A DNA stretch of 64,000 bases from a virus: IMG/VR virus record IMGVR_UViG_3300037258_000590, positions 1 to 64,000 of that record; one strand, given 5' to 3'. Position numbers and translations under genes: made by a program. Positions 569 to 53,325 of the stretch are shown piece after piece; within the stretch, counting starts at the first letter, position 1; each line of letters starts with the position of its first letter. The notes below the pieces were generated by a model, which saw only the letters and a list, made by a program, of their open reading frames with translations, made no database searches and was not told where the DNA came from.

Positions 569-3451
569 TCAGCGCTGGACCGGTGAGTGACCAGGGCAGC
601 CCGGGTTGTAGTCCCGGGCAGATTCAGGCCGGAAAAACGGGCAGAAGTAACAAATGTCATCTCCCGGGGCAATCGGGACATTCCCGATGTTGATCTGGCC
701 GGCCAGCACCCGCCGGGCGACCTCGCGCCGGAACGCCGTCTGGTCCAGTACGTCCGCGATCAGCGCGTCATCGCCGGGGCCGCAGTCGTGCGTCCACAGG
801 TACATCGAGTCCAGTGAGGATGCTGTCCGCGGCAGGGCGGCCAGGACGACGCGCCGGACCGGAAACCCGAGGTTGCGGTACCCGGCCGCGTACAGCAGCA
901 GCTGGACCTGGTAATGCCTCGGCGGCCCGGCGGCCGACATGACCTTGGCCATCGATGTCGGGCCGAGGCAGTTGTGCACCGGGATCAGCTGCTCGCCGGC
1001 CAGGTACAGATGGTCCGGGCTGTCGACGTCGATGCACCGGGTCGGCACGGACAGAACTGGCTTGATGTTCCGGACGATCCGGAACCTGGACCGTGCTGAG
1101 CCTTCCGCCCGGACCTGGGCCGCCTTGCGCTGGAGCCGGAACGGGTTCGCTCCGTGCGGCGTGAACTCTACGTAATACCCGGTCACGGGCAGGCCGGATT
1201 CCGTGGACTGGTGCGGGGCGATGTGCGCCTTCCAGCCGAGCGTGGCTGCTAGTTCAGCGACCGAGACGGCCAGGTGCTTGCTCGTTGTGCTGAATACTGC
1301 ACGCTTCCGCGGCTTGTTCCAGTTCCCGTCTGTATCCATCAGCCCTTGCAGCAGGGCCAGCCGTTGCTCGTAAGATCCGCGCAGGTATTCCGGCGGTACC
1401 TGCTTGACCCCGGTCAGGCGTCCGTGGCTGCCAGGCCATGCAGGATCACGCCACTGCAAGCCGGTTACGCGGAGTTGCCCGCTGAGCCCGTAGATGGTGC
1501 GCACGGATTTCCGCTTGCCATGGGGAGGGCTGACTGTGTAGCCGCAGGCCCGGATCTGGCCGGACAGGTCTTCTGCGTCTTTGATGCCGGCACCGATCGT
1601 GCCGCTGTGCACGCTGCCGTCTCCGAGCCAGCAGCCCAGGACGTACGGGTGCACGATCAGGTCCCGGGGAGCCAGCTCAAGCGCGCTGCCGTTGCGGAGC
1701 CGGAGCTGTCGTTGCGGTCTAGCCGTGGCGGACCATACGCGATCAGCCGCGTGTGCCGTGGGCAGCAGCATGACCGGCCATTGCGGCTTCCCGGCGGCCT
1801 CATACGGGATTTCCTGCACGTCATCGGTGATCAGCTCGCTGCCGTCATCGAACGTGATCCGGTAGCAGTCCCGGTACTGGGCGGGGTACGTCCGGGTGAC
1901 CTGGCACGGGCGCCCGTCCGTGCCGAACACGGTGTCCCCGGGCTGGAGCTGCCCCATGGTCGTCCAGCCGTCCGGCGTGGCGACCGGAGTGGAGACGAAA
2001 ATTCCTTTCCAGTCACATACTAGTTCTTCCACCCCGTCGTACAGGTCAGCCGTTCCCGGGTAGAGCGGATGGGGGGAGACGCGCTTCTCGGTGATCCACC
2101 GGTCGTAGCCGTTGAGGCCGTTCTCCAGGGAGAAGTGCTCGGCCAGCCACGCGTGCACCGCGGTCCCGACGATCGACGGCCACGGGTCTGCCACGTGATT
2201 CGTGACCGGCTCGCCCGCGAACTTTCCGACGACCTGGCGATCGCAATTTCCTGTCATCAGGTCGTCGGCCAGAGCGAAGGCTCCGGCTTCTCCGGTTATC
2301 GCGCAATACACGGATTCCGTGCGTCCTGTAGCCCGGACAGACTCCACGATCCAGAAAGGGTCACGTTCAGGGGCGAGCGAGGCGGTCTGGGCACGCTGAG
2401 CGTGCCGCGTTGTCAGGAAGAACCAGTCTGGCAGGTCGCGGCGGCGCAGGCTCAGCTTGTATAGCGGGGTTTCGGCTGTCGCCGGCCTGGTTCCGGAGAT
2501 GCCGAGCCTCATGTTTTCCTGTATCAGGCCGTACCCGATCCCGCAGACCGCCGCCGCCTCCCGGACGAACTCCAGGTGTCCCCGGTACGCTGAGGAGATT
2601 GAGCAGTGCCCGTCGTCGGTGACACACCCGTCCGCGGCAAAGTAGCCTGCGAGCCAGCTCATGAGGAACGATGCGGATTCATCAATGGGCGGAAGCCTCT
2701 TCCAGAAACGCGGCAGCCTCTCCACCATGGAATGTGCATGAGCGTGAGAAGGATCGTGACGCACCTTGTGCTCACCTGGGAAGAATCGCAGCATCGCCTC
2801 ATCCTTACCGTTGTGGTAGAGGATGAGCCTCGCGGCGCGATGCGTGCTGCCATTACTGCCTTTCGTGCCATCTCCGAACACGAAGCCCTGGGCTACGGCG
2901 AAAGACATCATCGTGGCGCTCTTAGGCTTGGCCTGACGTAGCTGCGCCAGGCGGTGACCAGGGCGCAGATCGCGAGTCTCCAGTTTCTGCTGCTTGCGGT
3001 TTTTCTGGCCCTGACCTGACCAGTACGAGCGGTACCAGTGGTGCTCAGCTGTAGCGAACACGATTTTGCTGTCCCTGTTCCGGCGCAGGGTGATCTCGTA
3101 AAGTTCCTGCTCGCCGAAATACTCGACTGGCACTTGGCAGAATTTGCCCCATCGTTTACGGATGTCGCTGCCCTTGTAGCGCAGGGGAACGAGGAGTTCG
3201 GCGCTGCCATTTTTAGCCAGTTCACGGATTGCCCGGATGCCCTGGCGGGTAACTACTTCCGTCTCCCCGCTGAGGCACGCGCTCCCGATCTCGGACGGCC
3301 CGAGGGTGCGCTGCACGCTGCGGGGCATCCGGTGCGCCTGGCGGATGATGATCTCGCGCAGCTCACGGGCGTACCGGGCCCCGAACGCGGTATTGCTGCC
3401 CGCGATGGCCGGAGTGGTACCCATGAACTGCCCTGGTGTCATGGTGGTCAT
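569..3451 (-). CDS. Cas4-like Fe-S PD-(D/E)XK nuclease with two inteins
   Basis: The 960-residue reading frame encodes a host protein of about 271 residues interrupted twice. The extein pieces are residues 1-58, 403-482 and 828-960. Joined, they show the PD-(D/E)XK order of Cas4/RecB-type exonucleases: a GTADL acidic motif near 465-469, then D-W-K at 480-482 as the (D/E)XK element, then a QxxLLYAAG motif (residues 850-858). One cysteine at 403 and a CYFC...C cluster near the C-terminus match the four-Cys iron-sulfur pattern of this family, which acts in DNA end processing and recombination. Intein 1 starts at Cys59 and intein 2 at Gly483. The ATG at 3451 overlaps the upstream stop as ATGA, which makes this the last gene of a four-gene operon. 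Whether intein 2 can splice is uncertain (see its entry), so activity is uncertain too. Confidence 0.85.
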   Translation of the reverse strand: MTTMTPGQFMGTTPAIAGSNTAFGARYARELREIIIRQAHRMPRSVQRTLGPSEIGSACLSGETEVVTRQGIRAIRELAKNGSAELLVPLRYKGSDIRKRWGKFCQVPVEYFGEQELYEITLRRNRDSKIVFATAEHHWYRSYWSGQGQKNRKQQKLETRDLRPGHRLAQLRQAKPKSATMMSFAVAQGFVFGDGTKGSNGSTHRAARLILYHNGKDEAMLRFFPGEHKVRHDPSHAHAHSMVERLPRFWKRLPPIDESASFLMSWLAGYFAADGCVTDDGHCSISSAYRGHLEFVREAAAVCGIGYGLIQENMRLGISGTRPATAETPLYKLSLRRRDLPDWFFLTTRHAQRAQTASLAPERDPFWIVESVRATGRTESVYCAITGEAGAFALADDLMTGNCDRQVVGKFAGEPVTNHVADPWPSIVGTAVHAWLAEHFSLENGLNGYDRWITEKRVSPHPLYPGTADLYDGVEELVCDWKGIFVSTPVATPDGWTTMGQLQPGDTVFGTDGRPCQVTRTYPAQYRDCYRITFDDGSELITDDVQEIPYEAAGKPQWPVMLLPTAHAADRVWSATARPQRQLRLRNGSALELAPRDLIVHPYVLGCWLGDGSVHSGTIGAGIKDAEDLSGQIRACGYTVSPPHGKRKSVRTIYGLSGQLRVTGLQWRDPAWPGSHGRLTGVKQVPPEYLRGSYEQRLALLQGLMDTDGNWNKPRKRAVFSTTSKHLAVSVAELAATLGWKAHIAPHQSTESGLPVTGYYVEFTPHGANPFRLQRKAAQVRAEGSARSRFRIVRNIKPVLSVPTRCIDVDSPDHLYLAGEQLIPVHNCLGPTSMAKVMSAAGPPRHYQVQLLLYAAGYRNLGFPVRRVVLAALPRTASSLDSMYLWTHDCGPGDDALIADVLDQTAFRREVARRVLAGQINIGNVPIAPGDDICYFCPFFRPESARDYNPGCPGHSPVQR
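971..2005 (-). other. Intein 2 (in the nuclease, residues 483-827), atypical N-terminus
   Basis: The element is 345 residues long. Its N-terminal block (TPVATPDGWTTMGQLQPGD) is clearly intein-like, but the first residue is Gly and not Cys or Ser. The block-B position that normally carries TxxH reads TDDVQ. A block-F cysteine (TRCIDVDSPDH) and the C-terminal His-Asn followed by Cys (IPVHN/C) are present. Class 3 inteins lack Cys1 and use a block-F Cys, but they also carry a block-B Trp and a block-G Thr, which I do not see here. LAGLIDADG motifs are intact at LGCWLGDG (604-611) and LLQGLMDTDG (700-709). The insertion point is directly after the catalytic-type Lys482 of the nuclease. Confidence 0.85.
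2246..3277 (-). other. Intein 1 (in the nuclease, residues 59-402)
   Basis: The element is 344 residues long. It starts with Cys (CLSGETEV), has a block-B TAEH motif near residues 134-137, and ends with Asn402 followed by an extein Cys. The penultimate residue is Gly and not the usual His (MTGN/C). Two LAGLIDADG-type motifs are present: QGFVFGDG near 188-195 and SWLAGYFAADG near 265-275, so a homing endonuclease domain looks intact. The insertion point is directly before Cys403, which I infer to be the first iron-sulfur cysteine of the host nuclease. Confidence 0.9.
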
Positions 3452-49716: not shown

Positions 49717-49763
49717 GAGAACCCGCCAGCAACGTTGGTCCTTGCTGGCGGGTTCTCTGTTTT
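49717..49763 (+). terminator. Strong Rho-independent terminator
   Basis: The arms gagaacccgccagcaa (49717-49732) and ttgctggcgggttctc (49742-49757) are perfectly complementary over 16 bp with a nine-base loop, followed by TGTTTTCC. It lies 14 bp after the Ig-like gene and just before the end of the convergent glycosyltransferase gene, so it ends the rightward transcript. Confidence 0.9.
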
Positions 49764-49773
49764 CCCCCGGCGG

Positions 49774-50697
49774 CTAAATCCGTTCCAGCAGTTTAAGGAA
49801 CCGCTTGGCGTTGTTCTCGAAGGTCCGGTCTGCTACAGCTAGCCGTGCCTTCTCGGCGGCAGCCTCACGTTCCTGATCATGCTTGAGCCACCACCGCAGC
49901 TTCTCGCTGGCGTCTCCGGGCCCGGCAAATGCTGGCAGCATCGGGAACAGCTCGTCCCCTTCGGGCCGGGGATCACGCAGGAAGAACAGCCCGCAGGCGG
50001 CCATCTCCACTTCGCGCGGGCCAAGGGCCGAACCGTGCCAGGAGCCCCCGTCCTCGGTCTCGCGCCGGTAGAAATTCAGGCCCGCCCGAGCGTTCCGGTA
50101 GACCTCGGCGGCTTCGTCGTTGTTCACGCAGTCGGGGTTGCCGAGCCCGGTCCCGACGAACCCGGCCAGCGGTGAGCCCGGCGGTACCGAGCCCCAGTCG
50201 TTGCCGCCGAGCAGCACGTCAAGCCCGTGCAGGTCCATCGCCTCGAAGAACTCGACCCTGCTCTTGAACGCGGTGCCGATGAACGCCAGGTCGGCGGCTA
50301 GCTCCTGGTTCAGCGGCCCGGTCCGCGGGTGGTGGACGGCTGGCCGGTAGGCGTGCGGCATGTACTCACTGACCGCGTACTGCCGGAACCGGTCCAGGTT
50401 GGCCGGATCGTTGAGCAGGTTCAGGTGCGCGAGCTGGCCGCGGGTCAGCTGCTCCTCGTCTTGGTAGGGCGATTCCGTGTGCAAGATGACGATCGTGTGC
50501 CGCCGGTCGCGCAGCAGCTGCATGGTCCCGGCGTTAAGGAAGAACCCCGAGATGAACAAGATGACGTCCGGCCAGAACGTGTAGCACGCATGGCTCAGCC
50601 CTTGCATGGCCGCCGCGAACGCCTGCTGCGGGGTCATCGCCGCCCGGCAGATCGGGTGCCCGGCTTCGTCCTTTTCACCGGTATCAATCATGGCCAT
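49774..50697 (-). CDS. CgeB-like glycosyltransferase, C-terminal part
   Basis: This is a 307-residue product from ATG 50697. The family features are FWPDVILFISGFFLNAGTMQ, VILHTESPYQDEEQL, and near the end LGPREVEMAACGLFFLRDPR then DELFPMLPAF, the donor-binding motif of CgeB/GT family 1-like enzymes. The normal N-terminal Rossmann segment is missing. It is found in another frame directly upstream (50699-50836), and the sequence just before ATG 50697 in this frame still reads YDRLIFYN, which fits the family. The gene is therefore most likely one glycosyltransferase interrupted by a one-base change. It could glycosylate virion or cell-surface targets. Confidence 0.75.
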   Translation of the reverse strand: MAMIDTGEKDEAGHPICRAAMTPQQAFAAAMQGLSHACYTFWPDVILFISGFFLNAGTMQLLRDRRHTIVILHTESPYQDEEQLTRGQLAHLNLLNDPANLDRFRQYAVSEYMPHAYRPAVHHPRTGPLNQELAADLAFIGTAFKSRVEFFEAMDLHGLDVLLGGNDWGSVPPGSPLAGFVGTGLGNPDCVNNDEAAEVYRNARAGLNFYRRETEDGGSWHGSALGPREVEMAACGLFFLRDPRPEGDELFPMLPAFAGPGDASEKLRWWLKHDQEREAAAEKARLAVADRTFENNAKRFLKLLERI

Positions 50698-50698
50698 G

Positions 50699-50836
50699 TT
50701 ATAGAAAATAAGCCGGTCGTAAATTCAGGTTGTACACGGCAACTTCACAGCCCAGATCGTTCAGTGCCTCCGTCCAACCCGCGTATACGTCATGTACGGA
50801 AAAGTCCGGGCCAGGGTGCACGACTAGAATACGCAT
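50699..50836 (-). pseudogene. Frameshifted N-terminal part of the CgeB-like glycosyltransferase
   Basis: ATG 50836 to TAA 50699 encodes 45 residues: MRILVVHPGPDFSVHDVYAG, WTEALNDLGCEVAVYNLN, then a terminal LRPAYFL. The first 38 residues are the expected N-terminal Rossmann fold of a glycosyltransferase. Removing one T from the TTT in aatttacgac (around 50721) would join it in frame to the downstream part. A sequencing error or a real inactivating mutation would look the same. Confidence 0.7.
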
Positions 50837-50973
50837 TCAAGCATCACCCCCTCCGCGGTCAGCCAGATAGATTCGTGCTTGTACTTTACCGTTGCAGCTG
50901 AGTGCTCGTTGACGTCCCCGCCCGGGCAGAACGCGACGCGCCAACAGCTGCCCGTCCCTTCTGGTGCCGCAAT
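50824..50973 (-). pseudogene. Small coding frame lacking a normal start
   Basis: A frame that ends at TAG 50824 reads SCWRVAFCPGGDVNEHSAAT then VKYKHESIWLTAEGVMLECV F. It overlaps the glycosyltransferase start by 13 bases. The only in-frame start-like codon is ATT 50973. An upstream frame, -1 or +1 to it, reads STPLIDGFTGQIPQHCGTRR with good codon bias. The two may be halves of one gene split by a small indel. No function recognised. Confidence 0.4.
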
Positions 50974-51033
50974 GCTGCGGGATCTGGCCGGTAAAGCCGT
51001 CGATCAGCGGAGTAGAACCGCAGCTCTACCATA

Positions 51034-51049
51034 GGTTTCACGTGAAACC
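51034..51049. promoter_or_regulatory. Perfect parS-like palindrome
   Basis: GGTTTCACGTGAAACC is a perfect 16-bp palindrome. Its inner 14 bases, GTTTCACGTGAAAC (51035-51048), equal the bacterial parS core bound by ParB, including that of Streptomyces. It spans the stop codon of the intein-containing peptidase gene (TGA at 51038-51040 on the minus strand). I found no second perfect copy and no parA or parB gene in the window. A chance 14-base match in 64 kb is improbable. Confidence 0.75.
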
Positions 51050-52906
51050 CTTGGCGCTTTGCCACGCAGCCAGCGCCCTGGCCACGCGCTCGTTCGCGCC
51101 GACGTGACCTCGTTCCGGCCAGTCTCCTATCACGGCGTTGAGCGCCTGGTCCGCAGGGTCCGCTACCGGGCCCGGGGGTGCCGGCACTGGTGCTGGTGGT
51201 ACCGGAACCGGCACCGGAGCGGGTGCCGGTGCTGGCGGTACCGGAACCGGGAACGGCTTTCCGGTGATCGCCTGGAACTCCGCGGCGAACGCGGTCAGGT
51301 CGACGCCCGCCTGGAATTCGGCGGTATTAAGCTGCTCCTCCCAGACCGGGAACCACAGTTCCTCCGCCTCGTGCGCCCAGAATGCGTCGGTGAAGCTGGT
51401 CTCCTCCGAATTGTGGGAGGCAAGACCCTCAGCAAAGAATGTCCTTGTGTCGGTCTGCAAGGCAATTACTTCCTGCTCGCCAACGAAAACTTTGCTAGTC
51501 AGCTGTACAGTGCGACTAATGTTGAGTCGTCCGAGAAGTTCTGGGTGGAACTTGTCGAGCAGCCGGGCGGGCCGCACAGAACCGAGGAATCGCAGAATCT
51601 CTGGCTTACGATAGATGTGCAGGCGGTGGATGTCCTTCCGCCCGGGGTGGCGGACCCCCTTAGAGGCTGCCCGTGAATCAACGTAATGTTTCGGGTTGAA
51701 TTCAAGTTCTTTCAGGCAGCGCTCTGTCTCGGCGAGCATGGCATTATTCGCCTGCGTAAATCCCAGCGTGGACGCAACAATGCCCTTTGCCTTGCCGCTG
51801 AGGTCCTGCTGCCGGAAATCCCCTTTACCGTCGAACGCGGCAGCGAGATAACCAGCTTCCCGGGATGTTCCGGTATCCCACACGTCAAGCGGCTTAATGA
51901 TCCGGGAAGCCCGCTTGCCAGTAAGCCGCAGATCCTCAGTTGCTAGCCAGTAGACTCTGTTTCCGAGGGTATGAACCAGCCATTTGTGCTCAGCCGAGCA
52001 TCGCACTTTCGTACCGTCGTTAAACTCCAGGTCATAGCAGGGCCTGACGATTTTCTGTGCAGATTCCACGCATGCTCGCCGGTAAAGCCGGCCACCCGAT
52101 CTGCCCCTGTAATTTTCTTCATCAAAGGCAAGAAGCCCGTCGCCTTCCTGAAGATCCCCCGCTGGAATCCAGTGCAAGTTAGATGTGAGTATGCGCATAC
52201 TTGAGTCTACGCACCAGGTGACGAACTTCTCATCACCGGCCATGGCCGGAGAGCCGCCCGCCACCTCGGCACCGTAGCCGCCGCACACGATCGAATGGCC
52301 GCCTTCGACCGGGCTGCCTTTCACGTAGTCCCACGGCCGCCCGGCGTCGAACTGGCTCTCCTGGACTTCCTGCACGTTGATGCCGAGCCACAGCACGCCG
52401 CCAGCAGCGATCGCCGCCTGAACCTCCCTGGCGTTCGCATGGTCGACCGCGGCGAACCCGACGAGCTTGCTGCCATCCGGGCCCGGGTTCTTGACCAGGT
52501 ATTCCAGCAGCGTCTGAATATCCATGCCGTTGTCCGCAGGCGACCCGGGTCCGGTTGTACCGGGGTCCCCAGAGGGATCGAATTGCGGGTTCTGTGTCCG
52601 GTATATTGCTAGTACGTCCGCCCAGCCCGGATAGACCTCATGCCCGCCGATCGCCTTAGAAATGACCCGGCGGATGTTCGCGAAAGTCACGGCAACACAA
52701 TCGCCGCATCCCGGAAAGCCTGGGTGAACACTATCATCGGGGCCGTTTCCGAGCATGAGCCAGCCGCCGTTCATGGCAGTAAGATAATCGACAGCCGCCG
52801 GGACAGCGAGAGCTGAGTGGCGGATGGCCGAGAACCGGATAGCCGGAGCACGCTTGGGCGGACGGCGGCCGTACGTGCCAGCGATGCGGGGAGCGGGCAT
52901 GGTCAT
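51038..52906 (-). CDS. Papain-like cysteine peptidase with intein
   Basis: This is a 622-residue product. ATG 52906 overlaps the previous stop (TGATG); an open frame further back is spurious. The host protein (residues 1-231 and 500-622) has GCGDC with likely nucleophile Cys70, GGHSIVCGGYG with His204, and a VTW / SEETSFTDAFW segment, consistent with a papain or C39-like fold. The intein splits this last conserved segment. The C-terminal 120 residues include a long Pro/Val/Ala linker and a helical end. Such peptidases occur among actinophage structural genes; the substrate is unknown. A basic N-terminus lacks a signal peptide. Confidence 0.75.
   Translation of the reverse strand: MTMPAPRIAGTYGRRPPKRAPAIRFSAIRHSALAVPAAVDYLTAMNGGWLMLGNGPDDSVHPGFPGCGDCVAVTFANIRRVISKAIGGHEVYPGWADVLAIYRTQNPQFDPSGDPGTTGPGSPADNGMDIQTLLEYLVKNPGPDGSKLVGFAAVDHANAREVQAAIAAGGVLWLGINVQEVQESQFDAGRPWDYVKGSPVEGGHSIVCGGYGAEVAGGSPAMAGDEKFVTWCVDSSMRILTSNLHWIPAGDLQEGDGLLAFDEENYRGRSGGRLYRRACVESAQKIVRPCYDLEFNDGTKVRCSAEHKWLVHTLGNRVYWLATEDLRLTGKRASRIIKPLDVWDTGTSREAGYLAAAFDGKGDFRQQDLSGKAKGIVASTLGFTQANNAMLAETERCLKELEFNPKHYVDSRAASKGVRHPGRKDIHRLHIYRKPEILRFLGSVRPARLLDKFHPELLGRLNISRTVQLTSKVFVGEQEVIALQTDTRTFFAEGLASHNSEETSFTDAFWAHEAEELWFPVWEEQLNTAEFQAGVDLTAFAAEFQAITGKPFPVPVPPAPAPAPVPVPVPPAPVPAPPGPVADPADQALNAVIGDWPERGHVGANERVARALAAWQSAKGFT
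51410..52213 (-). other. Intein 3 (in the peptidase, residues 232-499)
   Basis: The element is 268 residues, class 1 in appearance: Cys232 start (CVDSSMRILTSNLHWIPAGD), block B with CSAEHKW around 303-309, block F VIALQTDTRTFFAEG, and a His-Asn end (LASHN) followed by Ser500. One LAGLIDADG-like motif (GYLAAAFDGKGDF, residues 352-364) is clear; a second is weak, so the homing endonuclease may be single-motif or degenerate. The insertion site is in the conserved TW-S segment after the catalytic His. Confidence 0.88.
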
Positions 52907-53325
52907 CAGGTAGCTCCTACCGTGAGGTTCAGCCGGGCACCGAAGTACGTGACGCCCGCGTATTCGATCCGGCTGTAGTTTCCTGCCGAGACCGGTTCGC
53001 AGAAATCTACTGCGCCGCCGAGCGTGGGGTCGATCATGATGCCGCCCGGGACAGACTGCCCCTCGCCATCGCCGACGCCGAGATACGTATCCAGGGCGCG
53101 CTGGGTTTTCTCGGCCGGAGCCGCGTCGGAGATGATGATCAAGACGATCAAGCTCAGGTTCACCGCGCCGTCCATGGTGACCCCGTAGGTGATGAGCGGC
53201 TGGCCGGGCAGCACGACCGAGCACGGCGGTGACACCTGGTCCCGGGCCTGAGCGTCGCAGCGCAGCCCGGTCTGCGCGGTGATCTGCGTGGCCAGCGCGT
53301 TGCGGATCGCGGTCAGGTTAGCCAT
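52906..53325 (-). CDS. Tail terminator-like protein
   Basis: This is a 139-residue product from ATG 53325 with GGTGA upstream. It starts MANLTAIRNALATQITAQTG; beta strands GAVNLSLIVLIIISDAAPAE and a closing EYAGVTYFGARLNLTVGA fit siphovirus tail terminator or completion proteins. It lies upstream of the tail tube in the leftward order, as expected. The peptidase and other genes have been inserted between it and the tube gene. Confidence 0.65.
   Translation of the reverse strand: MANLTAIRNALATQITAQTGLRCDAQARDQVSPPCSVVLPGQPLITYGVTMDGAVNLSLIVLIIISDAAPAEKTQRALDTYLGVGDGEGQSVPGGIMIDPTLGGAVDFCEPVSAGNYSRIEYAGVTYFGARLNLTVGAT

Follow-up and report, generated by a model that had tools for sequence, protein, structure and literature searches.

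An orphan parS-type site in a large actinophage-like virus as a candidate binding site for host ParB

Phages that live as plasmid prophages, such as P1, N15 and the extrachromosomal mycobacteriophages, encode their own ParA and ParB together with their own sites. At parS, ParB loads as a CTP-dependent clamp, slides away from its loading site, activates ParA and recruits SMC (PMC12704722; PMC10197239). A single chromosomal parS, when accompanied by a par operon, stabilises plasmids, and among the listed chromosomal sites, that of Mycobacterium smegmatis is identical to the 14-bp core GTTTCACGTGAAAC (PMC7022226). The same core occurs in the DNA described here, a window of 64 kb that forms the beginning of a 210,383-base virus record. 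Its features around the site are as follows (dots mark features to which no strand is assigned).

51034..51049 (.): orphan parS-type site, a 16-bp perfect palindrome, GGTTTCACGTGAAACC
51035..51048 (.): 14-bp parS core, GTTTCACGTGAAAC, an exact match
51038..52906 (minus strand): accessory protein of 622 aa, with a papain-like-looking extein split by an intein, and a Pro-rich linker
51410..52213 (minus strand): intein of 268 aa with a weak LAGLIDADG match, splitting the peptidase-like extein
52906..53325 (minus strand): tail terminator gene (phrog_17840, E 1.6e-17), upstream of the accessory gene
49774..50697 (minus strand): glycosyltransferase-like gene (PF13524), downstream of the parS-type site
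50698..51033 (.): stretch of about 340 bp without a called gene, separating the parS-type site from the glycosyltransferase frame and holding an out-of-frame remnant of the glycosyltransferase 5' end

The initial annotation had reported an exact parS core within a perfect 16-bp palindrome spanning a stop codon, and both observations hold: the core is found at 51035-51048, and the palindrome includes the TGA stop (51038-51040) of the minus-strand ORF. The core is an exact instance of chromosomal-type parS (GTTNCACGTGAAAC or GTTTCACGTGAAAC), and the site departs from the extended consensus just outside it, where G...C replaces T...A. Under Markov models of order 0-3, between 1.3e-4 and 3.9e-4 copies of the 16-mer are expected by chance in the 210-kb record, next to which the estimate first made for 64 kb, of the order of 1 in 4000, was fair and slightly cautious. 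Perfect palindromes of at least 16 bp are not rare in this record (about a dozen, the longest of 20 bp), and it is therefore its sequence, not its symmetry, that makes the window site special. The parS observation is thus correct and is no trivial artefact. A scan for further parS sites, which had been suggested as a check, returned none elsewhere in the 210,383 bases at ≤1 mismatch, and the 64-kb window contains no second copy at ≤2 mismatches. A stoperator array is ruled out, the site being single in 210 kb, and no known RNA element was matched in the window with Rfam.

The gene that carries the site had been taken for a structural gene, a description that did not survive closer analysis. 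It encodes the 622-aa accessory protein, which matches no Pfam family above its cut-off and has no PDB relative by sequence; by eye, its extein looks like a papain-like cysteine peptidase in two conserved-looking parts. Its C-terminal segment is common to genes occupying the same slot in relatives. The intein is missing from the homologue in one relative (L131), and a diverged intein is present in the homologous slot of another (L144). The parS-type site, present once, lies within a leftward late gene cluster, on the margin of this variable accessory slot. On its other side, over 50698-50836, the glycosyltransferase start that relatives also conserve (ATG at 50836-50834) lies in another frame than the main ORF, possibly through a frameshift, phase variation or an assembly error; in relative L134, too, the gene seems to be broken close to this start.

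By sequence comparison, the virus resembles an actinophage: for the primase, helicase, exonuclease and head-tail adaptor, the nearest proteins, at low identity, come from phages of Gordonia, Mycobacterium, Streptomyces, Rhodococcus and other actinobacteria. It has no DNA-level relatives among GenBank phages. The scan for parA and parB that had been proposed found neither gene in the record, a result that fits the use of host ParB. No ParB_N match (PF02195) was detected in the 210,383 bases, with 10 of 14 control genomes positive, nor any ParA match (PF13614, AAA_31) at E 0.1, with all 14 control genomes positive. The virus thus combines an exact parS with a record in which no ParB was detected. 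A tyrosine integrase (PF00589) was likewise not matched in the record. Within the scope of these searches for ParB_N, AAA_31 and tyrosine integrase domains, the virus is best regarded as a large and probably lytic actinophage in which no partition cassette can be recognised.

Several other genes deserve mention. The record carries a PurZ-type adenylosuccinate synthetase (111112-112173 of the virus record, minus strand), and the phage may hence replace adenine by 2-aminoadenine, which could alter ParB binding and is a reservation about recognition of the site by host ParB. One window protein matches the dimerization domain of Lsr2, a nucleoid-silencing family of actinobacteria. At 569-3451 of the window lies a protein of 960 aa, exonuclease or Cas4/RecB-like, that shows LAGLIDADG and Hint matches and probably contains another intein; the same stretch is also matched by several terminase large-subunit profiles.

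The actinobacterial character of the core, also part of the initial annotation, is confirmed for the whole 16-mer. Among 80 listed genome loci with the G...C-flanked 16-mer, about half belong to Actinomycetota, mostly Streptomyces, and in Catellatospora, Arthrobacter and Brevibacterium it is one of several parS sites. The G...C-flanked form is a natural chromosomal parS variant. The outermost G...C in place of the commoner T...A counts against recognition by host ParB, but the T...A flank of parS is common and not obligatory, G...C forms being present on actinobacterial chromosomes. Captured host origin DNA was considered as a source and rejected: when the 2 kb around the site were compared with 120 chromosomal 16-mer loci, only short chance stretches matched beyond the palindrome. 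The phage flanks thus match none of these 120 loci, and host origin DNA did not bring the site in.

On balance, we read the window site as an orphan host-type parS that host ParB would recognise, the likeliest of the interpretations considered and, in our judgement, slightly better than even. During infection, host chromosomal ParB would bind the site, close there as a CTP-dependent clamp and slide onto the adjoining phage DNA; loaded at 51 kb, it would spread into the late genes. Clamped ParB could link the phage genome to the host ParA gradient and to SMC loading. The most likely benefit would be that a large phage genome is held, positioned or partitioned beside the host origin region, in replication or in a carrier state. 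Next in likelihood would come a local influence on the expression of late genes, and SMC loading may be another alternative. Such a reading had been advanced in the initial annotation, where segregation as a plasmid-like prophage, nucleoid localisation and a roadblock to transcription were named as candidate roles, all of which may apply. It is supported in part, by the actinobacterial parS core, the lack of parA and parB, and the enrichment in viruses and conservation in another phage family described below. No support was found for a structural gene, for further parS sites or for presence in relatives.

The last of these points needs attention, as presence in relatives was the comparison by which the site was to be judged. 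At ≤2 mismatches, it is absent from all 11 related records (about 409 kb in total, including records of 164 kb and 109 kb), whose tail terminator and glycosyltransferase are 65-70% and 62-70% identical, respectively, to those of the window. It is also absent at ≤2 mismatches from Streptomyces phage Frankenweenie, and the sole near-identical contig does not reach the site position. The gap between tail terminator and glycosyltransferase varies among relatives: it is about 200 bp in one group (that of L141) and holds other peptidase-like genes in L134 and L144, where the homologous protein ends are similar and lack the site. Absence in relatives weakens the case without refuting it, because these relatives are distant and their slot holds different genes. 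With no relative carrying the site and a variable slot, local evidence therefore cannot show selection, and the claim is weaker for the window locus, since its relatives are without the site.

The main rival is accordingly a chance or neutral match: the 16-mer would be without function, having come about within the 3' end of an accessory gene. The absence of the site from all 11 related records speaks for it, as does the similar protein end that relatives encode at the same place without it; moreover, scanning many windows for hundreds of known motifs will sometimes yield a match. The small expectation for this record (1-4e-4 copies) stands against it, and so does the frequency of the same site in other viruses. 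In an exact scan of IMG/VR, GGTTTCACGTGAAACC was found in 83 contigs (L145-L227), representing 52 sequence clusters. Three palindromes of the same base composition were not entirely absent, a point in favour of chance, but they occurred in only 2, 1 and 5 contigs. The parS 16-mer is thus about 30-fold above its matched controls, from which roughly 3-5% of such matches are expected by chance. Judged by this comparison of sequences, most parS-type sites on viral contigs are not due to chance, and we regard a chance origin of the window site as unlikely, if still to be taken seriously.

For those sites whose surroundings were scanned, the sequences at or beside them are phage genes, including those for terminase, portal, head protease, major head protein and head-tail adaptor, as well as tail fibre assembly, helicase and exonuclease. 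Of the 52 viral sites, 19 are intergenic, 4 lie at a gene edge and 29 are within coding sequence, in DNA that is 89% coding. T...A flanks, which were not part of the query, are found in 69 of the 120 viral 14-mer matches listed and correspond to the extended parS consensus. A ParB_N match is present in at least 10 of the 83 records with the 16-mer (7 above cut-off) and, among the matches listed, in at least 3 of 50 records from the 14-mer scan; these counts are lower bounds, many records being fragmentary.

One terminase family, that of contig L193, provides the evidence of conservation that the window locus lacks. Conservation judged from contigs fetched by the motif itself was set aside as circular, and the comparison was redone with 80 loci (L236-L315) fetched by homology to the L193 terminase, 69 of which had enough upstream sequence. 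In 39 of these 69 members, parS is found at ≤2 mismatches within 320 bp upstream of the terminase (18 exact), while two unrelated control palindromes, GTCTTACGTAAGAC and TTTGCACGTGCAAA, are found upstream of the terminase in none of the 69 loci at the same threshold; two other control patterns differ from parS by 2 mismatches and are not independent in this test. Among 23 dereplicated members, core columns are 95% conserved, versus 61% for the left flank and 56% for the right one, a contrast somewhat favoured, though not to the extent seen, by the choice of members on their best match 80-130 bp upstream of the terminase. Variation within the core of these 23 members is concentrated at known degenerate parS positions, including the GTTCCACGTGGAAC form. 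A core conserved over its flanks is thus observed in this family and not among the relatives of the window phage. In 12 larger records of the family, no ParB was found; a lone site is present in eight of them, a pair in one and a close cluster of three in two, and the remaining record lacks it.

Isolated phages provide further examples. Pelagibacter phage HTVC027P carries an exact parS (MN698241, 16413-16426) in an intergenic gap adjoining genes that include the terminase small subunit, and Alcaligenes phage vB_Af_QDWS535 carries GTTCCACGTGGAAC near its terminase (OK172329, 47935-47948); no ParB was found in either phage. Other cultured relatives are without the site, which is therefore not universal. 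We propose, tentatively and with a confidence that falls a little short of even, that tailed phages of several phyla keep an orphan host centromere site, often beside terminase or portal genes, by which host ParB, and via it ParA and SMC, would position, partition or compact the phage genome or mark it for packaging, the window actinophage being one instance. Recognition by host ParB is thus plausible at the window locus and is supported, on sequence grounds, at the level of a phage class.

Host ParB could also be recruited for another purpose, namely local regulation, its sliding clamps silencing or insulating the surrounding late genes instead of moving the genome. There is precedent for such effects, as ParB on an introduced parS lowers adjacent gene expression in Pseudomonas aeruginosa, and the centromeres of P1 and F silence the genes beside them (PMC7022226). 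The location of the phage site within the leftward late gene cluster would suit this role. However, no promoter was identified near the site, late genes need strong expression, and a single clamp-loading site may not stop phage transcription. We consider this explanation improbable.

Slightly less probable still is a role in RNA, as a hairpin or a terminator of transcription where the accessory gene ends, with a coincidental likeness to parS. The palindrome overlaps the stop codon, folding of the minus-strand transcript yields -16.1 kcal/mol (z -2.4), and some viral parS sites lie within longer, terminator-like hairpins. Yet the stem is weak and is followed by no T-run, and it does not qualify as an intrinsic terminator. 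A genuine strong hairpin is available for comparison 1.3 kb away, at 49717-49757, where a perfect GC-rich 16-bp inverted repeat with a 9-nt loop lies between convergent genes (-42 kcal/mol, z -5.8) and is a probable bidirectional terminator. Furthermore, viral contigs show no enrichment of control palindromes with equal fold potential, and pairing outside the 16-mer is near background in the 52 viral sites. Finally, an operator for another dimeric regulator of phage or host, with an incidental parS match, is very improbable: a loop-free palindrome would suit a dimeric binder and HTH proteins are encoded in the record, but there is only one copy in 210 kb, and the phage-wide enrichment follows the extended T...A consensus and the known degenerate positions of parS.

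We therefore return to an orphan parS read by host ParB as the preferred interpretation of the window site. If it is true, displaying a host centromere would give a phage cheap access, through host ParB, to segregation and condensin machinery, and would explain how phages without partition genes could be positioned or held in cells. Because it is only 14 bp long, an orphan parS is invisible to gene-based annotation. In the literature searched, which excluded preprints and most subscription papers, we found no phage described as using host ParB via a host-type parS, and an earlier description is possible. The enrichment of orphan host-type parS in phages without ParB, and its conservation in one family, merit more attention than the window site itself. 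With a conserved core upstream of the terminase and an exact site in HTVC027P, the idea is directly testable.

Comparison with known systems helps to delimit what would be new. The closest counterpart in sequence is chromosomal ParABS (parS tGTTNCACGTGAAACa), with which the phage site shares an identical 14-bp core and, on actinobacterial chromosomes, the same 16-mer; however, the phage site is single, lies away from any origin or parAB and is unaccompanied by a ParA or ParB of its own. Corynebacterium prophage CGP3 (PMC4446434) is likewise reported to be an actinobacterial phage that positions viral DNA, by means of a filament system, but its AlpC is a phage-encoded actin-like protein, whereas the window site would be a borrowed host centromere. 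The dual ParABS of Streptomyces plasmid SCP1 (PMC13245405) also serves a low-copy actinobacterial element relying on parS-type sites, but the ParBs of SCP1 recognise sites of their own and do not bind chromosomal parS (PMC13245405), while the phage site is of the chromosomal type. Plasmid-prophage partition, as in P1, N15 and the extrachromosomal mycobacteriophages (PMC7157519), resembles the present case in placing a centromere-like site on a phage genome, and differs in that here neither ParA nor ParB was found in the record and the site is that of the host. Phages of plasmid lifestyle are thus known to bring their own partition genes, and a strategy based on the site alone would, if true, set the phages described here apart from them.
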